Shown here: one piece after another, positions 4,523 to 62,484 of the stretch | Layout of the letters: each line of letters begins with the position of its first letter | Numbering within the stretch: position 1 is the first letter of the stretch | Assembly (NCBI RefSeq): GCF_000191045.1 | Contig: NC_015185.1 | Span: forward strand, 186,001 to 250,000 | Source: Desulfurobacterium thermolithotrophum DSM 11699 | GTDB lineage: Bacteria > Aquificota > Aquificia > Desulfurobacteriales > Desulfurobacteriaceae | Direction: 5' to 3' | DNA length: 64,000 nucleotides | The notes under the pieces: model-generated | What the model was told of the DNA's origin: nothing | The model's input: the letters and a program-made list of their open reading frames with translations, nothing else | Databases searched by the model: none | Position numbers and translations under genes: made by a program

Positions 4523-4951
4523 ATGTTGATGCCAAAAAGAACTAAGTTTAGAAAGCAGCAAAGAGGAAGACTTAAAGGTAAATCTTACAGAGGCAACAAA
4601 CTTGCCTTCGGAGACTATGGTATTCAAGCCCTTGAGCCTGGTTATATTACAACTAATCAGATTGAGGCTGCAAGGGTTGCTATGACAAGAACAATGAAAA
4701 GAGGTGGTAAGGTTTGGATCAGAATTTTCCCAGATAAGCCTTACACTAAGAAACCTCTTGAAACCCGTATGGGTAAGGGTAAGGGTAACGTTGAAACTTG
4801 GGTGGCAAAGGTTCTCCCAGGAAGAATAATGTTTGAAGTTGCTGGTGTTGGTGAAGAAGTTGCTCTTGAAGCTCTCAGACTTGCAGTTCATAAACTTCCT
4901 ATAAAGTGTAGAATCGTAAAAAGAGAAGAAACTCCAAAAGGTGAGGAGTAA
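4523..4951 (+). CDS. rplP: 50S ribosomal protein L16
   Basis: The 142-residue L16 starts [16 protein letters not shown] and contains [26 protein letters not shown] and [11 protein letters not shown], all typical of the family. It helps position A-site tRNA. The start lies only two bases after the rpsC stop, with a GAGAGGTG site inside rpsC, so translation is coupled. Confidence 0.97.
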
Positions 4952-4952
4952 G

Positions 4953-5153
4953 ATGAAGAAGTACACAGAAGAACTAAGACAGAAATCAACTGATGAACTT
5001 AAAAAGATGGTTGTGGAGCTTAAAGAGAAGCTCCTTAAACTTAGATTTAAAAACGCTTTTGGTCAACTTGAAAATCCTATGGAAATTAGGAAAACAAGGA
5101 AACAGATTGCCCGTATTTTCACTATCCTCAGAGAACGTGGCGTTAAGGCTTGA
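4953..5153 (+). CDS. rpmC: 50S ribosomal protein L29
   Basis: This small helical protein of 66 residues has the motifs [20 protein letters not shown] and [16 protein letters not shown]-like sequence (here [16 protein letters not shown]). L29 sits by the tunnel exit beside L23. An in-frame GTG at 4941 would add four residues inside rplP, but the ATG at 4953 has GAGGAG four bases upstream and matches the usual N-terminus. Confidence 0.96.
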
Positions 5154-46882: not shown

Positions 46883-47968
46883 TTAGATAAGAATTAGTTT
46901 TACTTTAAAAATATCTAAATAGTCATCTTTGATTTTAAGAGATAAACTATCTCTAATAGTAAATTTCCTCCAATTAAGATTAACTCCTACTGGAATAACG
47001 TTTGTTCCGTCTGAACCATGAAAGGATAAAAACTCAACCTCACTTTTAGAAGGAACCTTTATAGCTTTATTAGAAGAAATGATGATTTTTCTACCATTTA
47101 TCTTTAAGTTTGCTGTATAGGTTTTTCGCTCGTTTAACATTCTTTCACAATTTTCAATTAAGAAATCAAAATCGGGTTTTATTTCAAGATTAAAGATTCT
47201 AAAAAACTCTTTTAACATTAAAAGATGCGTTTTTACTTTTGTTTCAAGGTTAGGTAGCTGTTTTGAAGCTTCAAGACAGTATGCTTGAGTATTGCATTTT
47301 GAAAGACAATAATAAGTTAATGATCGTCTTTGTTCAGGATGTTTTGTATTTTTTGAAAAAGTATGAGTATTAAAAACGGGAATCAGCCACTTTTTATTTC
47401 TAATTTTATTGTTTACTAATCTTGACACAGTTCTTGCAATCTTTCCAAGCTCAAAATTTTTGTATCTTTCTTCATCTATTACTATACACTGTCCCCAAAA
47501 TCTTTTGTTTAAAATATGAAAACCAAAGCCATCGTGAAGCGAAAGAACAACATCAGGTTTTATCTCTTTTATAAGCTTTTTGAGTTTAAGAACGTAAGGA
47601 TAATCTGGATCCTTTTTAGAAAGCTTTGCAAACTTTCTATTCATATCTCCGTTGTAACCTCTAACATTGGCAAGAATAGAGATAAAGTTACTTCGAGGAG
47701 CGATAAAGAGCTCTCCTTTTTCTACCTTAACTTGTCTTAAAATTTCAGCACTTTTGTAAGCTCCTGGTTCATTTCCATGAATTCCACCAATGAGGAGAAT
47801 TCTTCCTCCTTTTCTTTTTCCCTGCAAGTAAGTGGTTTGAAATTTAATTTCAGGAAGAGTGACATGAATTCCTTTCCTAACAGTTCCAAAAGCATTTTGA
47901 GGGATAAACGGCAAAAGTGTAGAAACCCAAATTCCTTTTATAAATTCTCTTCTCCCAAGATTTTCCAT
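46883..47968 (-). CDS. M14/M99-like peptidoglycan carboxypeptidase (Csd4/Pgp1-like)
   Basis: The 361-residue protein has an N-terminal export signal containing RREFIKG (Tat-like twin arginine), then a succinylglutamate desuccinylase/M14-type zinc domain with GGIHGNEPG (HxxE) and VLSLHDGFGFH (third ligand). The C-terminal half of beta-rich domains resembles the arrangement of Helicobacter Csd4 / Campylobacter Pgp1, D,L-carboxypeptidases that set helical cell shape. It overlaps by 31 bases the upstream YkuD gene, which resembles their partner Csd6/Pgp2. A different amide substrate is possible. Confidence 0.72.
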   Translation of the reverse strand: MENLGRREFIKGIWVSTLLPFIPQNAFGTVRKGIHVTLPEIKFQTTYLQGKRKGGRILLIGGIHGNEPGAYKSAEILRQVKVEKGELFIAPRSNFISILANVRGYNGDMNRKFAKLSKKDPDYPYVLKLKKLIKEIKPDVVLSLHDGFGFHILNKRFWGQCIVIDEERYKNFELGKIARTVSRLVNNKIRNKKWLIPVFNTHTFSKNTKHPEQRRSLTYYCLSKCNTQAYCLEASKQLPNLETKVKTHLLMLKEFFRIFNLEIKPDFDFLIENCERMLNERKTYTANLKINGRKIIISSNKAIKVPSKSEVEFLSFHGSDGTNVIPVGVNLNWRKFTIRDSLSLKIKDDYLDIFKVKLILI

Positions 47969-48999
47969 TGTTTTCCTTCTCGAACGATATATAAAAGTTT
48001 TTTCCCTTTAGAATGAAAATTGTTTGATTTATACTCAAAATCAATATTTGCTACGTAGAGATTTCCAAATTGTAATACTCTTCCATCTTTGGATAGCGAT
48101 AGATTAAAAATTTTAATTTTTATCCACTTTTTTTGTTTTGTAATTCTTTTCTTATACCTAATCCAGTCCTTATAGTTCCCCTTTTTCCAAACAAAGTGTT
48201 TTGAATAAAAAGAAAAATAGCTTTTGAGGTTTTTAGGAGTGTTTTCCCATGCTTTTTTCCATCTTAGAATGAAGCTTAAAATAGATTTTTTTTCGTTTAT
48301 ATATTTTTTTCTTTCTACATAGTTAACTGTTGTTACAACTATAACAGGGGTTAATTTAGGATCTATAAGTTTTTTAAGTTCTTTGAGATATTCATTTTTT
48401 AAAACTATACATCCATTTGTGCTATGTGGAGGTCTGTTGGGATCATTAGTACCGTGAATCCAGATTCCATGACCATTTCTCTTTAAAACTTTCTTATCTA
48501 TCAGATTCGGATAATTTAAAGGAAAAGCTCCTATTCCATAAAGCTTTGGAAGATTTGTCCTCCAGTATAGGGGAAAGTAAATTCCTTCTGGTGTTCGAAG
48601 ATCTCCTTCTTCTAATTTATCTCCTAGTTTTTTTCCTGTTATACAAGGAAATTTCTTTATAACATGGGGAATACTTTTATCCATTTTGATTACGTATAAA
48701 ATTTCTCTAGTTTTATCGACTATAATTGCGTTTATAGATGGAGGTAAAATAAGAACGTTAGATATAAGTCTTTTTGGATAAGCCTTTTTTATAAGTTTTC
48801 TGACTTCTTTACTTTCTCCAGCATAAGAAAAGAGCAAAAGCTGTAGTTTAAATCTCTCTTCTGGAGAAAGATTTCTTATTTCTTTTGAAATTTCTTCAGG
48901 CGTTAAGGTATCTAGTTTCTTAACTAATCCGTACAAGCTTTCTCCTCTTGCAGTTAAAAAGGAGAAAGCTAAAAGAAAAACTAACAAAAACTTTAACAT
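47938..48999 (-). CDS. L,D-transpeptidase-fold (YkuD) protein with NTF2-like C-terminus (Csd6/Pgp2-like)
   Basis: The 353-residue exported protein has a signal peptide (residues 1-19), a YkuD catalytic domain with the motif GIWIHGTNDPNRP followed by STNGCIVL (catalytic His and Cys), and a C-terminal NTF2-like domain (RWKKAWENTPKNLKSYFSFYSKHF). This two-domain layout is that of Helicobacter Csd6 and Campylobacter Pgp2, L,D-carboxypeptidases. Its gene overlaps the M99-like gene downstream. It starts 40 bases after the nrdD glycyl-radical gene and could be read from the same transcript. Confidence 0.82.
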   Translation of the reverse strand: MLKFLLVFLLAFSFLTARGESLYGLVKKLDTLTPEEISKEIRNLSPEERFKLQLLLFSYAGESKEVRKLIKKAYPKRLISNVLILPPSINAIIVDKTREILYVIKMDKSIPHVIKKFPCITGKKLGDKLEEGDLRTPEGIYFPLYWRTNLPKLYGIGAFPLNYPNLIDKKVLKRNGHGIWIHGTNDPNRPPHSTNGCIVLKNEYLKELKKLIDPKLTPVIVVTTVNYVERKKYINEKKSILSFILRWKKAWENTPKNLKSYFSFYSKHFVWKKGNYKDWIRYKKRITKQKKWIKIKIFNLSLSKDGRVLQFGNLYVANIDFEYKSNNFHSKGKKLLYIVREGKQWKILGEENL

Positions 49000-49039: not shown

Positions 49040-49573
49040 TTATATAATTGAAGATAATTCATTAACAATTTCTTCAACGTCTTTTTTCTTTACCTCCTTT
49101 CTCGTTGCAAAGTCTTCAATTCTTCCTGAAAGCCAAAATAAATACTTAGCATTTTTGAAATTTTTCTCTATTTTTCCTCTCATTACGGGTCTAAAGTAAC
49201 CTATTGGTCTAGACCACAAAGTTACGTCTTCAGAATCACATCTTTCGCACTTTGTTTTTCTGCCAACCATTTTATGACCGCATTTATTGCATGTTGTTAA
49301 AAAAGGAGTTTTTGTTAGATATTGGATAGGGAAGTTTTTAATTATGTTAAAGATTAATCTTTCTTGTTCTTCTGGTTCCATTTCTTCAGCTGTGAAAATA
49401 TGGAATATACTTCCACCTGTAGCATAGCTTTGAAAGTGGGAATTTACGTCTATTTGTCTTAGTAAATCTCCTTCTTGAAAAGGTGCTTGAAAACCAGAAG
49501 TTAAAAATACCCTTTTTGATAGGGGATCACCATTAACAAATATCTTAGCTTTCACTTTCTTAACAGTTTCCAT
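49040..49573 (-). CDS. Class III ribonucleotide reductase, separate glycyl-radical/zinc subunit
   Basis: The 177-residue protein equals the C-terminal part of NrdD. It has YATGGSIFHIF near residue 50, the zinc site C95-x2-C98 and C109-x2-C112, and the glycyl-radical loop RPIGYFRPV with Gly125. In ordinary NrdD these follow the catalytic barrel in one chain. Here it is a separate gene starting one base after the stop of the catalytic gene, with its own GGAGG at the end of that gene. It is radicalised by NrdG and must assemble with the catalytic protein. Confidence 0.85.
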   Translation of the reverse strand: METVKKVKAKIFVNGDPLSKRVFLTSGFQAPFQEGDLLRQIDVNSHFQSYATGGSIFHIFTAEEMEPEEQERLIFNIIKNFPIQYLTKTPFLTTCNKCGHKMVGRKTKCERCDSEDVTLWSRPIGYFRPVMRGKIEKNFKNAKYLFWLSGRIEDFATRKEVKKKDVEEIVNELSSII

Positions 49574-49574
49574 T

Positions 49575-51119
49575 TCAGCCTCCTACAACTTCAAAAATTC
49601 TCTCCCCAAACTTTTCAAGGGATTCTCTTATAAATTGGTTAAGGATAGGATCGTTTGAAATCTCAGGTGATTTTTCTCCATTAAGAATATCAGCAACTGC
49701 ATTTGCAAACTGAAGATCTTTTTCTGCCATCCTGCAGGCCGCATTTTCGCTTGGTGCATACTCTAAGGAGTATAAAACTCTATCCTTTTCCATAAATTGA
49801 TGAAGCTTTTGATATAAGTATTGAGCTATTTCGTGAGCATATTCTTTAGCATCGTCATTAAAAAGTCCACCTTCAAACCCTGCATTTACCATTCCTTCAT
49901 GAACACCTACTACTGAAAATATATTGAAAAGAGAATGATCATCTTTCTGATAGAAAGAAAGGTATGGGTAAAGATCCTTCCAGTGTTTTTTAAGCCAAAC
50001 TCTTTTTCTTTGAAGTGCTTGAGCACCAATATCCATCGTATAGTCTATCATTCTTTTAAGAAGTTCAAAGTCTTCTTTTGCTAAGAAAAGGAGTCTATTC
50101 ATATTTATTGCATAAACTCCTATACCACCTACTCCACTACCTGAATGAAACGGATTAGAACCTGTAACAGCTTCTACTTGAGAAATGTCAAATAACATCC
50201 TGCAACAGTTACTATAAATCATTCCCTCGTCAAAAGGTTTAATGTAAGGATTCTTTTCTCTATAGATAGAAGGTTTTTCAAAAGGTTCTTTAAGATAGTT
50301 TTGAATGTAAAATCCTCCAAAGTATTCACTTTCTTTAAGAAGCAATTTCCAAGCAGGATTATTTCTATCAAAGTCTTCTGTAACGTTGACAGTTATTAGT
50401 GGAAACGTAAACGGATTACCGTCTGCATCTCCTTTTCTCATAGCTTTTATAAAAGCTGTATTTATTCTGTCGAAATAGTGAGAAGGAATCTGATTATAGG
50501 TAATGTCAAGAAGTTGCCCTGCATAAACAATAGGTTCGTGTTTCAATCTGCTATTAGGCTTTCCAAAGTCAAGTGTTATATTAGAGAAGGGAGAGTTTCC
50601 ACTTCTAAATGGCAAGTTTATGTTATAGAGGAACTCTTGCCAGAGATTTTCCAGCTCGTAATCTGAATAAGTTTTCTTTTCTATCTTTTCAAGGTGGTAT
50701 AGGTATCCTGCAGCAACTGTAGAGAGATCGTTTAAAGAAGTTGCACCAGATACCTCTTGAGCAATAAGACAGATAAGATTTGCACACTGCATAAAGAGAG
50801 TTTCTAATCTTTTTGGAGGAGCTGCTCTTCTTTCATTCTTTGCATTGCTACGAAGACCGTAAAACGCAATGTCTTTAGCAGACAATCCAATACAGTAAGC
50901 ACTCAAGCGATAAGTTTGATGGTGATATGCCCACCCTTCTTCGTGATGAATTCTTACAGGTAATCCTTTATATACAACATCAAAAAGATAATCCTTCATT
51001 ACTTCGCCAGTCACAACATGTTCTAAAACAGGAACTCCTCTAACAAAGTTGGCATTATTCCTTGAAATATCGTCGTTTTCGATAAATAAATCGATGAGTT
51101 TGAAATACTTGTTGTGCAT
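49575..51119 (-). CDS. nrdD: Class III ribonucleotide reductase, catalytic subunit lacking radical domain
   Basis: The 514-residue protein matches the barrel of anaerobic NrdD: HHEEGWAYHHQTYRLSAYC near residue 60-76, IYSNCC with Cys305/306 (candidate thiyl-radical and partner), SGSGVGGIGVYAINMNRLLF, and YAPSENAACRMAEKD late in the chain. It lacks both an N-terminal ATP-cone and the C-terminal glycyl-radical domain; the latter is the next gene. Its ATG overlaps the nrdG stop (TAATG) with GGAGGAAG upstream. It reduces ribonucleotides under anoxia. Confidence 0.85.
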   Translation of the reverse strand: MHNKYFKLIDLFIENDDISRNNANFVRGVPVLEHVVTGEVMKDYLFDVVYKGLPVRIHHEEGWAYHHQTYRLSAYCIGLSAKDIAFYGLRSNAKNERRAAPPKRLETLFMQCANLICLIAQEVSGATSLNDLSTVAAGYLYHLEKIEKKTYSDYELENLWQEFLYNINLPFRSGNSPFSNITLDFGKPNSRLKHEPIVYAGQLLDITYNQIPSHYFDRINTAFIKAMRKGDADGNPFTFPLITVNVTEDFDRNNPAWKLLLKESEYFGGFYIQNYLKEPFEKPSIYREKNPYIKPFDEGMIYSNCCRMLFDISQVEAVTGSNPFHSGSGVGGIGVYAINMNRLLFLAKEDFELLKRMIDYTMDIGAQALQRKRVWLKKHWKDLYPYLSFYQKDDHSLFNIFSVVGVHEGMVNAGFEGGLFNDDAKEYAHEIAQYLYQKLHQFMEKDRVLYSLEYAPSENAACRMAEKDLQFANAVADILNGEKSPEISNDPILNQFIRESLEKFGERIFEVVGG

Positions 51120-51853
51120 TATTCTTCCTCCACAGGATAAAACGGATTGAATTGGTGTGGAGAGAATTCTAACAATTTTCTGATCTCATTTTTATCTTCT
51201 TCCAAAAGTAGTGGATACTCTACTGTTCTAAAAACAGTGTACTGTAAAGGATTTTTCTTTATTATTTCTAATGATGTCATTAGTTTTTCAGAATAATTCA
51301 AAACTGCTTCATCGTCTACATCTTCTGTGGAAAAGAGAACTCTCTTAAAGCGTTTTAGTTCCTGAGGGGTGTATCTAACTTTGAGAGGAATTTTTATATC
51401 CAAAGCAAAACCATTAACTACTTTTTTTTCTATCAGTCTTTGAATTACTTCTGGATTTGTTCCATTTGTATCAACCCTAACTGAGAATCCTAAAGATCTT
51501 ATAAACCTTAAGCCTTCCTCGAGTTTTTTTTCTAGTGTTGGTTCCCCTCCAGAGATAATGATAAGCTCAACTCCTAAAGCTTTTAGCATTAAAAGTTTCT
51601 CTTTTAGTTTTTTGTAGCTTAATTTTTCCTTTTTTCCTTTATATTCGTTGTATCCGTGGCGATTATGACAGTGATAACAGTTAAGATTGCAGAGATTGAT
51701 CTCTGTATAAAGTACAGCTGACTGGATGCCAGGTTGGTCTCTAAATGTAATTGGAGTTTCAACATCAAGAAAAAGGGAGACCTTTATTAGGTCTTCCTTA
51801 ACTTCCTTGCGACCGTTATCATGTTCTTTAAAGCTGGAATTACTTCTTCCCAT
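51119..51853 (-). CDS. nrdG: Anaerobic ribonucleotide reductase activating protein (radical SAM)
   Basis: This radical SAM activase has the cluster motif CNLNCYHC (CxxxCxxC), IISGGEPTLE, and RVDTNGTNPEV. It generates the glycyl radical on the neighbouring nrdD product. The start is unclear: homology begins near LFLDVETPITFRDQPG, just after the metE stop (51787), but no ATG, GTG or TTG lies there. The nearest ATGs in frame are at 51853 and 51874, inside metE. An ATA start preceded by AAGGAAG near 51792 is an alternative. Confidence 0.85.
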   Translation of the reverse strand: MGRSNSSFKEHDNGRKEVKEDLIKVSLFLDVETPITFRDQPGIQSAVLYTEINLCNLNCYHCHNRHGYNEYKGKKEKLSYKKLKEKLLMLKALGVELIIISGGEPTLEKKLEEGLRFIRSLGFSVRVDTNGTNPEVIQRLIEKKVVNGFALDIKIPLKVRYTPQELKRFKRVLFSTEDVDDEAVLNYSEKLMTSLEIIKKNPLQYTVFRTVEYPLLLEEDKNEIRKLLEFSPHQFNPFYPVEEE

Positions 51854-53952
51854 CTTCTTGTCTTCAATCCACAATCAGGGTTTATCCAGAAGTTTTCCTT
51901 AGGAATTACCTTTAGAGCTCTTTCTACAATTACTTCCATCTCTTCAAGAGATGGAACGTAAGGAGAATGAATATCCCAAACTCCAAGACCTATTTGTCTG
52001 TCAAAAGCAACTTTTTCAAACGTTTCTATGATATCACCTTTTGATCTTGATGCTTCTATTGAAATTACATCAAAATCCATGTCTACTATGTAATTTATGA
52101 TTTCTCCAAACTCAGAGTAGCACATGTGAGTGTGAATTTGTGTCTCAGGCTTAACTGAAGAGTGGCAAAGTCTAAATGACTTTATGGCCCAATCAAAGTA
52201 CTCGTCCCAGTTCCTTTTCTTGATTGGAGCTTTTTCTCTAATTGCTGGCTCATCGATTTGGACAATCTTGATACCAGCTTTTTCGTAGTCCTTTATTTCG
52301 TCTTTAAGAGCAAGTGCTATTTGGTAAGCAACTTCTGAAGTTGGAATGTCCTCTCTTACATAACTCCAGGCAATGATTGTTACGGGTCCTGTAAGCATAC
52401 CTTTAACAGGCTTTTCTGTTAGACTTTGAGCAAAGACTATTTCACTAATTGTCATCTGTCCATCTCTTTCAACATCTCCATAGATAATAGGTGGACGATA
52501 ACATCTAGTTCCGTAAGAGATTACCCAACCGTTTCCTGTTGTTGCAATTCCTTTCATTTTTTCGGCAAAGAATTCGACCATGTCTGTTCTTTCAAACTCA
52601 CCATGAACAAAGACATCAATATCAAGATCTTCTTGAATTTGAATAGCTTTTGCAATCTCTCCTCTGATAAATGTCTTATAGTCTTCCTCAGAAAGTCTTC
52701 CTTTTTTGTAAAGAAGTCTCACTCTTCTAACTTCTTCTGTCTGTGGGAAACTTCCAATTGTTGTTGTTGGAAAGAGAGGCAGGTTAAGAACTTCTTGCTG
52801 TTTTTTAATTCTTTCTTGGTAACTTGGCTTTCTAACAAAATCTTCTTCCTTTAAGCTCTTAACTCTTTCTCTCACTTTAGTTATTTCTCCAAAGGAGCTT
52901 TCAAGCTCAGCAACCCACTCTTTAGCTTCTGCTTCATCCCCTGAAAGGATTTGAGAAATTAACTGAAGCTCTTTGAGTTTTTCTTCTGCAAAAGCTACCT
53001 TTTTCAAGAGCTCTTCTGGAAGAGTTACACCTAAGAGATTTACAGGAAGATGAAATAGTGGTGCAGCATTTGTTACAACAACATCAAATTTCTTAGAAAG
53101 CTCGCTGATAACCTCAGCTGTTTTAAAGAGGTCGTTTCTCCAAACGTTTCTTCCATCAACAACACCAGCAAAGAGCTTTTTACCTTTAGGGTCAATTTCT
53201 CTAAGCTGAGCTAGGTTTTCGCCTCTGTCGTGGGCAAAGTCAACGCCAACTCCAGAAACTGGAAGATCAAAAAGCTTTTGAAGACAATCAACACTATCAT
53301 AATAGGTGAAAATGTTAATTTCAGCATTAGCTTTTTCAAAAGATTTGTAAGCATCTTGTATGAGGTTCCACTCTTTTTCTGTTAATTCCATAACGAGGGC
53401 TGGATCTTCAAGGTGAACAGACTCAAATCCTTTCTCGTTTATGTACTGGACTACTATTTCTGTAAGTTCTTTTAATGCTTCTTCAAAATACTCTTGGGGA
53501 AGATTTTTCGAAAGCTTTAAAAATGTAAAAGGAGCTATTAGATGAACATTTTCTCTTGCTCCTTCGTGTCTGTTCCAGACTGGAGTTGTCACTTTAAAAC
53601 ATGGTTTCTTTCCTTCAAAGTCTGGAACTAGATAGTGGTAGTTTGTGTTAAACCACTTTGTCATTTCAAGGGCGTCTTTACCTCTACAGAGGTTAAAGTA
53701 CTCATCAAGAGTTTCAGCTTTGTAGACTCCAAAAAGAAGAGCCATATCGAGCATCGGATCGTAGAGGGTCATTTCCCCCTGTGGATGGGCATTAACGTAC
53801 TTTTGGTAGGTCTCTTCTCTTTTTCTATTGAGCTCCTTAATGCCCGTAAGAAGCTCTTCTTCTGTAACTTTCTGCGCCCAGTATCCTTCTATTAGGCGCT
53901 TAAATTCTCTCTGCTTTCCAAGTCTTGGAAAGCCGTAAGCATACGTTTTCAT
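51787..53952 (-). CDS. metE: Cobalamin-independent methionine synthase MetE
   Basis: The 721-residue enzyme has the two-barrel MetE layout: YGFPRLGKQREFKRLIEGYW at the start, TTTIGSFPQTEEVR in the middle, and the zinc/homocysteine site with HTHMCYSEF (His, Cys) and the C-terminal NPDCGLKTR cysteine. It transfers methyl from 5-methyl-tetrahydrofolate-triglutamate to homocysteine without B12. AGGAGG at 53961-53966 precedes the ATG. A cobalamin riboswitch lies upstream and nrdG overlaps its end, so it heads a B12-regulated operon. Confidence 0.97.
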   Translation of the reverse strand: MKTYAYGFPRLGKQREFKRLIEGYWAQKVTEEELLTGIKELNRKREETYQKYVNAHPQGEMTLYDPMLDMALLFGVYKAETLDEYFNLCRGKDALEMTKWFNTNYHYLVPDFEGKKPCFKVTTPVWNRHEGARENVHLIAPFTFLKLSKNLPQEYFEEALKELTEIVVQYINEKGFESVHLEDPALVMELTEKEWNLIQDAYKSFEKANAEINIFTYYDSVDCLQKLFDLPVSGVGVDFAHDRGENLAQLREIDPKGKKLFAGVVDGRNVWRNDLFKTAEVISELSKKFDVVVTNAAPLFHLPVNLLGVTLPEELLKKVAFAEEKLKELQLISQILSGDEAEAKEWVAELESSFGEITKVRERVKSLKEEDFVRKPSYQERIKKQQEVLNLPLFPTTTIGSFPQTEEVRRVRLLYKKGRLSEEDYKTFIRGEIAKAIQIQEDLDIDVFVHGEFERTDMVEFFAEKMKGIATTGNGWVISYGTRCYRPPIIYGDVERDGQMTISEIVFAQSLTEKPVKGMLTGPVTIIAWSYVREDIPTSEVAYQIALALKDEIKDYEKAGIKIVQIDEPAIREKAPIKKRNWDEYFDWAIKSFRLCHSSVKPETQIHTHMCYSEFGEIINYIVDMDFDVISIEASRSKGDIIETFEKVAFDRQIGLGVWDIHSPYVPSLEEMEVIVERALKVIPKENFWINPDCGLKTRRWEEVIPALKNMITVARKLRKT

Positions 53953-53963
53953 CTTTTCTACCT

Positions 53964-53994
53964 CCTGCGGTGTTTTGTTTTAAACACCTGCAGG
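53964..53994 (-). promoter_or_regulatory. Hairpin partly covering the metE ribosome-binding site
   Basis: On the transcript CCTGC-A-GGTGTTT pairs with AAACACCGCAGG, a stem of 12 bp with one bulge, whose 3' arm runs into the AGGAGG of metE (53961-53966). A second CCTGC lies upstream (complement of 54055-54059) and could compete for the same GCAGG, a possible switch between open and closed ribosome site. No U-run follows, so translational rather than transcriptional control is more likely. Confidence 0.6.
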
Positions 53995-54066
53995 AAGCTC
54001 TAAGGCGGGAAAAGAAAAAGGAATACCCTCTTCTTTCCCGCGCCCCGAACCCCCGCAGGACGCGAA

Positions 54067-54088
54067 GGGGTAGGAGTTTCTCCTACCC
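54067..54088 (-). promoter_or_regulatory. Hairpin just after the riboswitch aptamer
   Basis: GGGTAGGAG and CTCCTACCC form a perfect 9-bp stem with a three-base AAA loop, immediately 3' of the aptamer closing helix on the transcript. It lacks a U-tract and is probably part of the expression platform. Farther on, GCGGGAAAGAAGAGG (near 54040) pairs with the pyrimidine-rich TTTTCCCGC to form another long hairpin. Confidence 0.55.
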
Positions 54089-54089
54089 A

Positions 54090-54252
54090 TCACGGGCCGG
54101 TCTCCCGGCTTGCAGGGTTAAATAGGCTTTAACCTTCCCAGAGAGGGAGCTTTTCACCCATACTCTCCAGTGGTTAAAGCCAGAAAAACTCCTGCTCACG
54201 GTTGCGAGGACAGCGCCGGACTTTCACCGGACTTCCCGTTCACCCGTGACGG
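54090..54252 (-). promoter_or_regulatory. Cobalamin riboswitch (adenosylcobalamin class) upstream of metE
   Basis: On the minus strand the aptamer opens TCACGGGTGAACGGGAAG, followed by the core CCGGTGAAAGTCCGG-CGCTGTCCTCGCAACCGTGA, then CCACTGG, and ends with the B12 box AAGCCGGGAGACCGGCC and the closing helix CCCGTGA, which pairs with TCACGGG. All are hallmarks of the cobalamin element. Ligand binding is expected to shut off metE and the nrdG-nrdD genes behind it. Transcription probably begins at about 54251. Confidence 0.93.
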
Positions 54253-54257
54253 GGGTC

Positions 54258-54286
54258 AATTTAGGACAAATTGGCAGAATAATCAA
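54258..54286 (-). promoter_or_regulatory. Promoter of the metE operon
   Basis: On the minus strand TTGATT (54286-54281) and TAAATT (54263-54258) are separated by exactly 17 bases. The predicted start, about seven bases downstream, coincides with the first helix of the riboswitch, which supports the assignment. Confidence 0.7.
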
Positions 54287-55636: not shown

Positions 55637-57934
55637 ATGCGAAAGATTTCTGTCGTTAAAAGAAATGGCAGTAAAGAACCGCTTAATATAGAAAAAATTA
55701 GAAAAGTAATTAATTGGGCTGCAAAGGGATTAGAAGTAAATACATTAAAACTTGAATCAAAATTAAAACTTCATTTTTATGATGGAATTACAACTCGAGA
55801 AATTCATAAATCCATAGTAAACACAGCACTTCAGCTTACAACTCCAGAAGAACCGGACTGGAGAATCTTAGCTGGAAGACTTTTCATCTTTAATCTTTAC
55901 AAGGAAGTATCCATAAAAAGAGGAACCTCAAAACTTGCATATATTGGTGGTGGAAAAGAGTACCTAAAAGTCCTAAAAGACCTTGTAGAAAAAGGTTTAT
56001 ATACCAACGAGATTTTCAAAAGTTACTCTGAAGAAGAAATAGTTAAAGCTGGAGACTATCTAAAGCTTGAATACGATTTTCTATACGACTATGCAGGAGC
56101 AAATCTACTTGCCAAAAGATACCTATGTATATACGAAGACTATCCGATAGAGCTCCCTCAGGAAATGTATATGTCAATAGCTTTAATGCTTGCTAAAGAC
56201 GAATCTATAGATAAAAGAATGACATTAGTTAAAAAGTTTTACGACTTGATAGCTGGTAAGAAGCTATCTTTAGCTACGCCAATTCTTATAAACTTGAGAC
56301 GTCCAAACGGAAACCTTTCTTCTTGCTTTATTACTGCAATGGACGATAGTCTTGATTCCATTATGTATACTGCAAATCAAGTCGCGCAAATATCAAAAAG
56401 AGCTGGTGGAGTTGGAGTAAACTTATCAAGAATTAGAGCTCAAGGTTCTTGGATTAAAAAAGTCTTTGGAGCAAGTGGTGGAGTAGTTCCATGGATAAGA
56501 ATTCTTAATGACATAGCTGTAGCTGTAAACCAAGAAGGCAAAAGAGCCGGAGCTGTTACGGTAGCTCTTGACGTTTGGCATCTTGACATTTTCGATTTTC
56601 TTGAACTAAAGACAGAAAATGGTGATCTAAGAAGAAAAGCTTTTGACATATTTCCTCAAGTTGTGATTCCAGACCTTTTTATGGAAAGAGTAAAGAAAGA
56701 CAAAGATTGGCTACTTGTTGATCCATATGAGGTAGAAAAGAAGTTTGGCTTTAGGCTATACGAACTCTGGGGAGAAGAATTTGAAAAAGCCTACGTACAA
56801 ATAGAAAAAGAAAGCTATAAGTTAAAGCTAAAAAAGAAAGTGAAAGCTAAAGAACTCTTAAAAGAAATCCTTAAAACCCAAGTTGCAACAGGACTTCCAT
56901 ACATTTTCTTTAAAGATACTGCAAATAGATTAAATCCACTTAAACACGATGGCTATATCGGAAATGGAAATCTCTGCATGGAAAGCTTTTCTAACTTTAG
57001 ACCTTCAAAGAGCTTTAAAACAACTTTAGAAAAAGGAAAAATTGTCAGCAAAGTAGAAAAGCCAGGACTAGTTCATACGTGTAATCTTCTTTCTATAAAC
57101 CTTGCAAACATAGAAAACGATAAAGAGCTTGAGGATGTAGTAAGAACTGCTGTAAGAATACTTGATAACACTATCGACCTTACAACTTCACCAATTTTGG
57201 AAAGTAAACTTCACAACGACCGTTATAGAACGATTGGAATTGGAACGCTTGGGCTTGCAGATTACCTTGCTAAAAGAGAAATACCTTACGGGAAACAATC
57301 TCTTAATTTAATAGATGAGCTTTATGAAAAAATTGCTTACTACGGAATAGACGAAAGCATAAATCTTGCAAAGGAAAGAGGAAAATTTCAAGCTTTTGAA
57401 GGCTCAGATTGGAGCAGGGGAATAATTATTGGAAAAGATAGAGAGTATCTTTTAAAGAAAACTCATCTAAAAGAAAAATGGCTCACAGTTTTAGAAAAGC
57501 TTAAAAAGTATGGAATTAGAAATGGTCAACTCTTTGCAATAGCTCCAAATACAAGTTCTGGACTCTTGCAGGGAGCAACTCCAGGAGTACTACCACCCTT
57601 TAGCAGGTTCTATATTGACAAAAACCAAAAACAAGCAGTTCCGATATGTCCGCCTTACCTAAAGAAAAAGTTTTGGTTTTACAGAGAAAGCAAGTTTTTA
57701 AACCAAAAAGAAGTAATAGATGTTATCTCCACAATCCAAAGGTGGGTTGATAGTGGAATTAGTATGGAGCTCCTTTTTAACCTTAACCTTGGAGTAAGAG
57801 CAAAAGACATTTTTGAAACAGTCATTTACGCTTGGGAAAAAGGTATAAAGACCATCTACTACGTTAGAACGATTCAGAAAGATAGTCAAACAGCAATTTC
57901 TAAGAAAGAAGAGTGTGTAGCCTGTGCAAACTGA
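55637..57934 (+). CDS. nrdA: Ribonucleoside-diphosphate reductase, class I, alpha subunit
   Basis: The 765-residue protein has an N-terminal ATP-cone (SVVKRNGSKEPLNIEKIRKV) for overall allosteric control, NLSSCFITAMDD and PGLVHTCNLLSIN (the redox cysteine pair), NLCMES (radical Cys and Glu), and a C-terminal CVAC for thioredoxin exchange. SAPNTSS-like APNTSSGLLQGATPGVLPPFS is also conserved. It makes deoxynucleotides with the nrdB radical subunit encoded 15 bases downstream. GGAGG precedes the ATG. Confidence 0.95.
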   Translation: MRKISVVKRNGSKEPLNIEKIRKVINWAAKGLEVNTLKLESKLKLHFYDGITTREIHKSIVNTALQLTTPEEPDWRILAGRLFIFNLYKEVSIKRGTSKLAYIGGGKEYLKVLKDLVEKGLYTNEIFKSYSEEEIVKAGDYLKLEYDFLYDYAGANLLAKRYLCIYEDYPIELPQEMYMSIALMLAKDESIDKRMTLVKKFYDLIAGKKLSLATPILINLRRPNGNLSSCFITAMDDSLDSIMYTANQVAQISKRAGGVGVNLSRIRAQGSWIKKVFGASGGVVPWIRILNDIAVAVNQEGKRAGAVTVALDVWHLDIFDFLELKTENGDLRRKAFDIFPQVVIPDLFMERVKKDKDWLLVDPYEVEKKFGFRLYELWGEEFEKAYVQIEKESYKLKLKKKVKAKELLKEILKTQVATGLPYIFFKDTANRLNPLKHDGYIGNGNLCMESFSNFRPSKSFKTTLEKGKIVSKVEKPGLVHTCNLLSINLANIENDKELEDVVRTAVRILDNTIDLTTSPILESKLHNDRYRTIGIGTLGLADYLAKREIPYGKQSLNLIDELYEKIAYYGIDESINLAKERGKFQAFEGSDWSRGIIIGKDREYLLKKTHLKEKWLTVLEKLKKYGIRNGQLFAIAPNTSSGLLQGATPGVLPPFSRFYIDKNQKQAVPICPPYLKKKFWFYRESKFLNQKEVIDVISTIQRWVDSGISMELLFNLNLGVRAKDIFETVIYAWEKGIKTIYYVRTIQKDSQTAISKKEECVACAN

Positions 57935-57949
57935 GTAATGGGGGAAATA

Positions 57950-59008
57950 ATGGCTGATATTAGAAAAGAGCTCATGAAACCAAGACCAATTTTCAACCCG
58001 AACGGAAACGATGATCCTACAAAAAGGGGAATACTTTACGGAAATACCACCAACATCTTTAATCTTAACGACGTTAAGTATGAGTGGGCTACAAAGCTTT
58101 ATAGAGTTATGATGGCAAACTTTTGGATTCCCGAAACAGTTGATCTTACTCAAGATGTTTTAGACTATAAAGAGTTGACTGAAGATGAAAGACAGGCTTA
58201 CGATGAAATACTTTCCTTTTTAGTTTTTCTAGATTCTATTCAGACAACAAACATTCCAAATATTGCAGCTTATGTTAAAGCTCCTGAAATAACAATTGAC
58301 CTTTCCATTCATGCCTATCAGGAGGCTATCCATTCTCAAAGCTATGGATATACGATAGAGTCTGTTATTCCCCCGCAGCACAGAGAGACTGTTTACTATT
58401 GGTGGAAAAAAGATCCAATACTTTTTGAAAGGAACAAATACATAGCTGATATTTATCAGAAGTTTCTTGAAGAACCAACAATGGAAAACTATGGAGAAGT
58501 TCTTGTAGGAAACTATCTTCTTGAAGGTCTTTATTTTTACAATGGCTTTATGTTTTTCTATAACCTTGCATCCCGCAATCTTATGCAAGGAACAGCTGAT
58601 ATTATTCGCTACATAAATAGAGATGAGCTAACTCACGTTATTCTATTTGAGCACTTTATGAAAGACCTGACAGATGAAGAGTTTAAAAAGTATTTACCTA
58701 AGGACAAGATTTATGAAATGTTTAAGGTAGCAGTTAACCAAGAACAAAGATTCAGTAAAAAAGTTATTGGAAACAAAATCCTTGGAATGAATGAAAAGTC
58801 TATTGAAGAATATACCTACTATGTTGCTAACAAAAGATTAAAAGCTCTTGGACTTGATCCTATATTTCCTGATACTCCAAATCCTTATGAGCATCTTGAA
58901 AGAATTGCAGACACAGGTGGAGAAGGAAACGTTAAAGCTAACTTCTTTGAGGCTACAGTTACCTCTTACAATCAAGCAAGTGCTGTTGAAGGTTGGGACG
59001 AAATTTAG
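57950..59008 (+). CDS. nrdB: Ribonucleoside-diphosphate reductase, class I, beta subunit
   Basis: The 352-residue ferritin-like protein has the di-iron ligands in FLDSIQ (Asp), EAIHSQSY (Glu, His), EGLYFYNGF (Glu) and RDELTHVILFEH (Glu, His). The Tyr after EAIHSQS sits where the radical tyrosine is in E. coli NrdB, so this is a tyrosyl-radical type needing oxygen or another oxidant. I chose the ATG at 57950 (GGGGGA at 57940-57945) rather than 57938. Confidence 0.93.
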   Translation: MADIRKELMKPRPIFNPNGNDDPTKRGILYGNTTNIFNLNDVKYEWATKLYRVMMANFWIPETVDLTQDVLDYKELTEDERQAYDEILSFLVFLDSIQTTNIPNIAAYVKAPEITIDLSIHAYQEAIHSQSYGYTIESVIPPQHRETVYYWWKKDPILFERNKYIADIYQKFLEEPTMENYGEVLVGNYLLEGLYFYNGFMFFYNLASRNLMQGTADIIRYINRDELTHVILFEHFMKDLTDEEFKKYLPKDKIYEMFKVAVNQEQRFSKKVIGNKILGMNEKSIEEYTYYVANKRLKALGLDPIFPDTPNPYEHLERIADTGGEGNVKANFFEATVTSYNQASAVEGWDEI

Positions 59009-59830: not shown

Positions 59831-60256
59831 ATGACGAATGAAAAATTAGCTCCTAGACTAGAAGATTATCTTGAGACAATTTATCTTTTAGAAAAAAAGA
59901 ATGGAGTAGCAAGAGTTAAAGAAATAGCCAACGAAAGAAGTGTGAAAATGCCTACGGTTACAGACGTTTTAAGAAGACTATCAGAAAGAGGATATATCCT
60001 TTACGAGCCTTACGGATATGTTAGAACAACTGAAAAAGGAAGAGAGTATGCTGAGAATCTCTATAAAAAGCATGAAGTTTTAAAAGACTTTATGAAGACA
60101 GTTCTTCAGCTCCCTCCAGAAATTGCAGAAAAAGAAGGATGCCTGATGGAGCATCATCTTTCTAAGGAAACAGTTAGAAAGATTCAGAAGTTAGTTGACT
60201 TTTTTAGAGAAAAAGGACTTTCTGAGGAATTTAAGGAGTTTTTATGGAAGGGATGA
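59831..60256 (+). CDS. DtxR/MntR-family metal-dependent transcriptional regulator
   Basis: The 141-residue regulator has an N-terminal winged helix (LEDYLETIYLLEKKNGVARVKEIANERSVKMPTVTDVLRRL) and a dimerisation/metal domain with EGCLMEHHLS, matching the Cys, Glu and His ligands of DtxR-type iron repressors. There is no SH3 domain, as in MntR and short IdeR relatives. Cys in that motif favours iron over manganese. It overlaps the first mqnE-like gene by 13 bases, so it is cotranscribed with it. Confidence 0.88.
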   Translation: MTNEKLAPRLEDYLETIYLLEKKNGVARVKEIANERSVKMPTVTDVLRRLSERGYILYEPYGYVRTTEKGREYAENLYKKHEVLKDFMKTVLQLPPEIAEKEGCLMEHHLSKETVRKIQKLVDFFREKGLSEEFKEFLWKG

Positions 60257-61359
60257 CAAATCCTTTTTTAGTTCCTGAGTTCGTAGAAGATAATTCTCTC
60301 ATTCCAATAGTGGAAAAAATCTTATTAGGAGAAAGACTTACTTTTGAAGATGGAATTAAACTTTTTAAGACAAACGATATCTTAACTCTTGGAAAACTTG
60401 CGGATTTTGTAAATAAGAAAAAGAACGGAAATCTTGTCTACTTTGTTGTTAACAGACACATAAATCTTACAAATCTTTGTATTGGAAACTGCAAGTTCTG
60501 TGCTTTTAGAAGAAGTAAAAGCGATGCAGATTCTTATGAACTAACTATAGATGAAGTTTTAAAAAAAATTGAATCTTTTAAAGGTATTTCTGAAATTCAT
60601 ATAGTTAGTGGTCTTCATCCAGAGTGGAGTTATGATTATTATATAGAGCTCTTAAGGGAAATAAAGAAAAACTTCCCTTACGTACATATCCAAGCGTTTA
60701 CAGCAGAAGAAATTGATCATTTATGCAGAATTTCTGGAAAAGATACTGAAGAAGTTTTTTGCGACTTAATAGAAGCTGGTCTTGGTTCACTTCCTGGAGG
60801 TGGAGCTGAAATTTTTAGTGAAGAAATAAGAAAGAAGCTTTGTCCTGAAAAGCTTTCATCTGATAGATATCTTGAGATTCATAAGATTGCTCATAAATTT
60901 GGATTAAAAACAAATGCTTCTATCCTTTACGGTCATATTGAAACTTATGAAGATAGAGTTAAGCATCTTTTAAGGTTGAGAGAGCTCCAAGATGAAACCG
61001 GCGGTTTTCAAGCCTTTATTTCCTTTGCTTACCATCCGAAAAACACCAAACTTGGCGGTAACTTTACAACAGGCTTTGATGATCTTAAGATGTTATCAGT
61101 TGCAAGGGTTCTTCTTGATAATTTTCCTCACATAAGAGCTTTTTGGATAATGCTTGGAGAAAAACTTGCTCAAATATCTCTTCACTTTGGGGTTGATGAC
61201 CTTGATGGAACAGTTATTGAAGAATCAATTACCCACTCTGCAGGTGCAAATACAGGTTCTTTTATGCCAAAAGAAAGACTCATAAAACTTATAAAAGAAT
61301 CGGGTAAGATTCCGGTGGAAAGGGATACGAACTATAACGTTATTAAAGTTTATGATTAG
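60244..61359 (+). CDS. mqnE: Aminofutalosine synthase-like radical SAM enzyme (MqnE), copy 1
   Basis: The 371-residue enzyme has VNRHINLTNLCIGNCKFCAF (CxxxCxxC cluster), AGLGSLPGGGAEIF, DETGGFQAFISFAYHP and DDLDGTVIEESITHSAGA, all of the MqnE type rather than MqnC (which has DRNINYTN). MqnE joins the enolpyruvyl chorismate derivative to adenosine in futalosine-route menaquinone synthesis. AAGGAG precedes the ATG; the gene overlaps the DtxR-type regulator and is followed nine bases later by a close paralogue. Confidence 0.88.
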   Translation: MEGMTNPFLVPEFVEDNSLIPIVEKILLGERLTFEDGIKLFKTNDILTLGKLADFVNKKKNGNLVYFVVNRHINLTNLCIGNCKFCAFRRSKSDADSYELTIDEVLKKIESFKGISEIHIVSGLHPEWSYDYYIELLREIKKNFPYVHIQAFTAEEIDHLCRISGKDTEEVFCDLIEAGLGSLPGGGAEIFSEEIRKKLCPEKLSSDRYLEIHKIAHKFGLKTNASILYGHIETYEDRVKHLLRLRELQDETGGFQAFISFAYHPKNTKLGGNFTTGFDDLKMLSVARVLLDNFPHIRAFWIMLGEKLAQISLHFGVDDLDGTVIEESITHSAGANTGSFMPKERLIKLIKESGKIPVERDTNYNVIKVYD

Positions 61360-61368
61360 GAGTACTCT

Positions 61369-62484
61369 ATGGAAGAAGTTATTCTCTCCCTTGTAAAAGA
61401 TAAAAATTTATTTTCCATTATTGAAAAAATTTTTTATAATAAAAGACTCACTTTTGAAGATGGAATTAAACTTTTTAACTCTTTTGATCTTCCTATACTA
61501 GGACTTCTTGGAAATTATGCTGCCGAGAAAAAGAATGGAAAACTTGCCTACTTTAATGTTAACGTTCATATAACTCCTACAAATATTTGTATCGGAACTT
61601 GTAAATTCTGTGCATTTAGGAAGAAAAAAGGTGAAGATGGAGCTTACGAGTTAACAATTGAAAAGATCTTAGAAAAGTTAAGAAATTACAAAGAACAGAA
61701 TCCCGGACTTACAGAAGTCCATATTGTTGGAGGACTTCATCCTGATTGGGGATACACAGAGTACATTGAAATAATTAGAGCTGTTAAAGAAAGCTTTCCA
61801 GATATTCACATAAAGGCTTATACTGCTGAAGAAATTAAATATATTGCAGAAAAAGGAAGAAAATCTATTGAAGAAACTATAAAGGATTTGATAGAAGTTG
61901 GACTTGGCTCTATTCCTGGAGGAGGAGGAGAAATTTTTAAAAAGGAAGTGAGAAAAAAAATTTGTCCGGATAAAATATCTGGTGAAGAATACCTTAAGAT
62001 TCATAAAACTGCTCATAGATTTGGCTTAAAGTCTAACGCGACAATGCTTTTTGGACATATTGAAAGCTATAAAGATAGAGTTGACCATCTTTTAAAACTT
62101 AGAGAAGCTCAAGATGAAACAGGTGGTTTTCAAACGTTTATTCCACTTGCCTTTCATCCTCTTAATACAAAAATTCCCGGAGCAACTTATACTACCGGAG
62201 TTGACGAACTCAAAACTATCGCTGTTTCAAGACTTTTGCTCGATAACTTTTCTCACATTAAAGCTTATTGGATAATGCTTGGAGAAAAGGTTGCCCAAAT
62301 AGCACTTCAATTTGGAGCCGACGATATAGATGGAACAGTTACAGAAGAAGATATTACGCAAGCTGCTGGAGCAAAGGCTGGAGAGTATATGCCAAAAAGC
62401 AGACTTATAAAGCTTATAAAAGAAGCTGGAAAAATTCCTGTTGAGAGAGATACTCTCTATAATGTTATAAAAATTTATGATTAA
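61369..62484 (+). CDS. mqnE: Aminofutalosine synthase-like radical SAM enzyme (MqnE), copy 2
   Basis: This protein is also 371 residues and collinear with copy 1 from LTFEDGIKLF through VERDTLYNVIKIYD. It has VNVHITPTNICIGTCKFCAF, VGLGSIPGGGGEIF, DETGGFQTFIPLAFHP and DDIDGTVTEEDITQAAGA. The Cys triad is intact, so both copies should be active radical SAM enzymes. The pair probably arose by tandem duplication and has diverged strongly. Which copy makes aminofutalosine, and whether the other acts on a related substrate, cannot be told here. Confidence 0.87.
   Translation: MEEVILSLVKDKNLFSIIEKIFYNKRLTFEDGIKLFNSFDLPILGLLGNYAAEKKNGKLAYFNVNVHITPTNICIGTCKFCAFRKKKGEDGAYELTIEKILEKLRNYKEQNPGLTEVHIVGGLHPDWGYTEYIEIIRAVKESFPDIHIKAYTAEEIKYIAEKGRKSIEETIKDLIEVGLGSIPGGGGEIFKKEVRKKICPDKISGEEYLKIHKTAHRFGLKSNATMLFGHIESYKDRVDHLLKLREAQDETGGFQTFIPLAFHPLNTKIPGATYTTGVDELKTIAVSRLLLDNFSHIKAYWIMLGEKVAQIALQFGADDIDGTVTEEDITQAAGAKAGEYMPKSRLIKLIKEAGKIPVERDTLYNVIKIYD

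Follow-up and report, generated by a model that had tools for sequence, protein, structure and literature searches.

A cobalamin riboswitch ahead of metE and a putative two-chain class III ribonucleotide reductase in Desulfurobacterium thermolithotrophum

Introduction

Cobalamin riboswitches control metE, the gene of the B12-independent methionine synthase, in Mycobacterium tuberculosis (PMC11260477) and Priestia megaterium (PMC10653944). B12 elements also lie upstream of the class III ribonucleotide reductase genes nrdDG in Desulfovibrio vulgaris and Desulfuromonas (PMC545781), and a B12 riboswitch is found upstream of nrdD in Chlorobium (PMC8620254). The class III enzyme itself, NrdD, is a single chain of about 650 aa in Thermotoga maritima (PMC4493059; PDB 4coi). 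One reductase encoded by two adjacent genes is known from Pseudomonas aeruginosa (NrdJa/NrdJb), and according to a 2015 paper split NrdJ is the only split reductase found outside viruses (PMC4520616).

The locus studied here shares features with each of these systems. As in M. tuberculosis and P. megaterium, an RF00174-type aptamer with the L5-L13/P13 logic lies ahead of metE; here, however, a translational-type Shine-Dalgarno hairpin is predicted and nrdGD follows directly after metE. The B12 riboswitch upstream of class III reductase genes recalls D. vulgaris, Desulfuromonas and Chlorobium, but the delta-proteobacteria have NrdJ, while here none is found and metE is located between the switch and nrdG. 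The two adjacent reductase genes resemble those of P. aeruginosa; there the enzyme is class II, whereas here it is class III and its smaller chain bears the radical glycine. The CCR cysteine motif and the glycine loop, aligned to Gly621, are those of T. maritima NrdD, distributed over two chains instead of one.

A first-pass annotation of the window, a stretch of 64,000 nucleotides, had proposed that a single RNA switch turns off both metE and nrdDG when cobalamin is present, leaving MetH and NrdJ to act.

Results

A cobalamin riboswitch precedes metE

The elements of the leader are as follows.

54078–54262, minus strand: cobalamin riboswitch aptamer (RF00174; cmscan 89 bits, E 1.2e-20, model positions 1-189)
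54203–54209, minus strand: candidate L5 kissing segment CCUCGCA, complementary to L13 at 54051-54057 (putative pairing)
54039–54064, minus strand: candidate P13/L13 hairpin of the expression platform, near-identical in 13/13 metE leaders
53961–53997, minus strand: predicted Shine-Dalgarno-sequestering hairpin directly 5' of the metE ATG (folding and comparison)

The aptamer match is full-length and exceeds the curated RF00174 cut-off (89 versus 31.5 bits), which bears out the B12 element annotated ahead of metE. Its 5' edge at 54262 lies 10 bases outside the end assigned previously (54252). A strong promoter had also been proposed; our scan of the 200 bases upstream of the aptamer found no sigma-70-like site on the minus strand. 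The L5 segment is identical in all 13 metE leaders compared, and the mutual complementarity of L5 and L13 is common to all of them. The role of the P13/L13 hairpin is inferred from published corrinoid riboswitches, where a kissing loop stabilises P13 to the same effect (PMC10653944). The sequestering hairpin has a calculated energy of -24.3 kcal/mol at 37 °C and -10.4 at 70 °C, and it forms in 11 of the 12 leaders folded (weaker in L040), with its stem pairing preserved through U-A/C-G exchanges. When the platform is folded without the kissing loop, part of the Shine-Dalgarno sequence is paired in the minimum-energy structure as well, and folding energies for the platform by itself do not separate the ON and OFF forms.

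Folding, conservation and the published analogues suggest that the switch probably acts on translation, as an OFF switch. Binding of B12 would stabilise the L5-L13 kissing loop and P13. With P13 stabilised, the hairpin just 5' of the metE ATG could form, masking the Shine-Dalgarno sequence and stopping metE translation. Without B12, the L13 strand would instead pair with the 5' arm of the sequestering hairpin. The nrdG, nrdD and radical-domain genes, located downstream with coupled junctions, may be reduced by polarity.

Genes for a GNAT-like and a SAM-methyltransferase-like protein (PF14542, PF04445; 54342-55419) lie between the riboswitch and nrdA, a position conserved in most relatives.

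metE, nrdG and nrdD are tightly packed

Four reading frames follow the leader.

51787–53952, minus strand: metE, B12-independent methionine synthase, 721 aa (NF003556, 914 bits; PF08267 and PF01717)
51119–51874, minus strand: nrdG-like radical-SAM activase ORF (TIGR02495, 114 bits; PF04055)
49575–51119, minus strand: nrdD catalytic chain, 514 aa, SNCCR motif (PF13597, positions 2-428)
49040–49573, minus strand: nrdD radical-domain chain, 177 aa, two CxxC pairs, radical glycine G125 (PF13597, positions 434-547)

The nrdG ORF adjoins nrdD, and NrdG2 (TIGR02495) is by far its best family, at 114.1 bits against a cut-off of 131.15. The annotated overlap of nrdG with metE holds for the ORF, which opens at a TTG (51874) inside metE and ends at 51119; its start is less settled. 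The codon that serves as start in relatives (ATG or GTG) is an ATA here, at 51787, overlapping the metE stop (TAATA). The start may thus be TTG 51874, ATG 51853 or ATA 51787, and the true overlap may be a single base. Further downstream the annotated junctions are as described: nrdG and nrdD share a TAATG overlap at 51119, and the radical-domain ORF, preceded by AGGAGG, starts after a one-base gap (49575/49573).

The claim that no terminator separates the genes also agrees with our scan. The sole candidate at the metE/nrdG junction, a weak 6-pair hairpin at 51794-51778, was rejected as being at chance level against shuffled sequence (6 terminator-like hits in the region, 5.0 expected from shuffles). 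We consider that metE, nrdG, nrdD and the radical-domain gene probably share one mRNA in this species. The transcript may extend further, since an L,D-transpeptidase-like gene (named by eye; 47938-48999) begins 40 bases after the radical-domain gene and is found near nrdD in most relatives.

The junction differs in most relatives. The metE-nrdG gap is 74-116 nt in the 8 relatives aligned at the junction, and L121 and L123 are gapped as well. Within the gap, the scan called terminator-like hairpins in L041, L044, L046, L039 and L121; by eye, L123 and L045 (missed by the scan) also have one. The L042 hairpin is weak and was not called, and L035/L038 carry a different, long hairpin. Gapless junctions occur in the window, G002 and the genus g7. 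As g7 branches deepest on the midpoint-rooted tree, in which many inner nodes are weak, the adjacency of metE and nrdG is probably old.

It is conceivable that nrdGD has its own, undetected promoter inside metE and is untouched by the switch. Gapped relatives have AT-rich, promoter-like sequence past the hairpin (read by eye), and nrdGD stands alone in G001. Our scan near the window junction found no promoter-like site, and we regard this explanation as unlikely here.

The genome encodes MetH but no NrdJ

The genome is a single contig of 1.54 Mb. It encodes MetH as one 851-aa protein with homocysteine, pterin and two B12 domains (PF02574, PF00809, PF02607, PF02310), in which no match to the activation domain was found. 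With MetH in the genome and a riboswitch directly ahead of metE, the elements of a metE/MetH B12 switch are in place. The first-pass annotation was therefore right about MetH but not about the second B12-dependent enzyme: searches with two families found no NrdJ, as the single PF02867 match is class I NrdA and TIGR02504 stays below its cut-off. An exchange of nrdDG for NrdJ calls for NrdJ in the same genome, and its absence contradicts the idea that NrdJ is left to act under B12.

The only other ribonucleotide reductase is encoded by a neighbouring, divergent gene pair.

55637–57934, plus strand: nrdA, class I large subunit, 765 aa, with ATP cone (TIGR02506, 578 bits; TIGR02504, the NrdJ family, below cut-off)
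57938–59008, plus strand: nrdB, class I small subunit, 356 aa (PF00268, 270 bits)

No class I/II large chain other than NrdA was found in the genome. The motifs usual for class I are visible by eye in NrdB, beside it, and NrdAB should therefore need oxygen. Downstream of nrdAB, two adjacent 371-aa genes of similar sequence stand in tandem (60244-62484), with radical-SAM-like cysteines (CxxxCxxC).

B12 is probably imported, not made. CbiC was found in none of the 22 family genomes, and we rejected de novo synthesis on this ground; in addition, a second riboswitch in the genome lies upstream of a btuF/btuC/btuD-like cluster and a TonB-receptor-like gene (names by eye).

One could still suppose that the switch deliberately represses metE and nrdGD together under B12, with class I NrdAB rather than NrdJ supplying DNA precursors. 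The zero-gap metE-nrdG junction, the TAATG overlap and the lack of a clear internal terminator would fit, as would the B12 elements known upstream of nrdDG elsewhere. Apart from the absence of NrdJ, such control is doubtful because full repression of nrdGD would leave only the oxygen-requiring NrdAB in Desulfurobacterium, which we take to be a strict anaerobe. NrdJ-bearing relatives, moreover, mostly separate nrdGD from metE, the opposite of what this proposal predicts. We judge it quite unlikely.

The riboswitch follows MetH across the family

We compared 22 Desulfurobacteriaceae genomes, 16 of which have a riboswitch match. These include every genome in which MetH was found (15); in the sixteenth, G011 (62% complete), it was not. 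Nor was it found in any of the six genomes negative for the riboswitch match (G002, G008, G013, G014, G016 and G019). Four of these six form one clade in the tree, indicating about three independent losses.

NrdJ shows a different distribution. It is present in 13 of the 22 genomes, including G001 of the same genus, and was not found in the riboswitch-bearing G000, G006, G011 and G020 (the last two incomplete); the riboswitch is thus kept in genomes that have MetH without NrdJ. Conversely, G014 has NrdJ, MetH was not found, and the riboswitch ahead of its metE is visibly decayed. Where metE and nrdGD are separated (G003, G021), the riboswitch stays with metE and none is present at nrdGD. In G001 (assembly 89% complete) metE was not found, and a short remnant of the riboswitch 5' end remains just upstream of nrdG. 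Sequence comparison among the 22 genomes ties the riboswitch to MetH and metE rather than to NrdJ and nrdDG, at odds with a joint metE/nrdDG switch paired with NrdJ.

The distribution of NrdJ could also suggest a relic, in which an NrdJ-bearing ancestor switched metE and nrdGD together and this lineage lost NrdJ while retaining the arrangement. The 13 NrdJ-bearing genomes and the tight junctions in G002 and g7 are compatible with this history. However, none of the NrdJ-bearing genomes examined has a gapless metE-nrdG junction, and in G001, which has NrdJ, nrdGD is free of the switch. We therefore find a relic very unlikely.

The class III reductase is encoded as two chains

Neither nrdD product is a complete class III enzyme. 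Against the single-chain family TIGR02487 the two chains score 160.6 and 72.2 bits, below the cut-off of 326.35, and the catalytic domain, cysteine motif, zinc-site cysteines and radical glycine are present only when both chains are taken together. No ATP cone was matched in the 514-aa catalytic chain, which aligns with residues 15-481 of the single-chain homologue L066. The 177-aa chain aligns with T. maritima NrdD 533-629, placing G125 at Gly621, and its RPIGYFRPV motif is invariant in 11 genomes. Other Aquificota have single-chain homologues of 654-675 aa, with which the two chains together align end to end, with a variable linker between them. We rejected a sequencing error as the cause of the split: two nrdD ORFs occur across the family, with a Shine-Dalgarno-like sequence before the second.

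In G043 and G051, of another Aquificota family, NrdD stops short of the glycine loop, and RVVGYYRPIESFNKGKKGEF is carried by a separate ORF of ~60 aa. This small ORF is found in L126 (about 4620-4960) and L127, with an AGGAGG-type sequence upstream. Judged by sequence, this arrangement is a second, different split of a class III reductase.

Intein-like insertions were observed at the active-site cysteines of the NrdD catalytic chain in some relatives (L042, L039, L124, L119). G003, G006 and G011 have one, G017 and G018 two, giving open frames of 926-1378 aa.

Discussion

We conclude, with a probability of roughly 0.7, that the element is an ordinary cobalamin riboswitch, selected to shut off metE when MetH can use imported B12, and that co-regulation of nrdGD is a by-product of gene order. 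As the genome has no B12-dependent reductase, a by-product is a more natural account of nrdGD co-regulation than a reductase swap, and it is the most likely one. Since nrdGD abuts metE, it may be partly affected by the switch in this species. The zero gap and the lack of a convincing terminator or promoter at the window junction count against our reading, and given that gap nrdGD may be strongly co-repressed with metE. The earlier picture of one switch and two enzymes keeps its riboswitch, MetH, tight packing and lack of a clear terminator; NrdJ, the pattern among relatives and their gapped junctions do not support it. B12 elements ahead of nrdDG are, in themselves, already known (PMC545781; PMC8620254).

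The case shows that adjacency of genes under a riboswitch can pass for joint regulation. It also supplies a clean comparative test, through MetH loss, NrdJ loss and gene separation.

The split NrdD is the more unusual and novel feature of the locus, and it matters more than the question of the riboswitch and its operon. A literature search, which was not exhaustive, turned up no earlier description of a class III enzyme that is split. We consider it likely that the Desulfurobacteriaceae reductase is a two-chain enzyme, carrying its glycyl radical on a translationally coupled subunit of 170-200 aa, and that the radical glycine of another Aquificota family lies on a peptide of ~60 residues through a second, independent split. 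If true, the encounter of the activase with its glycine could be studied directly on a detached glycyl-radical subunit.
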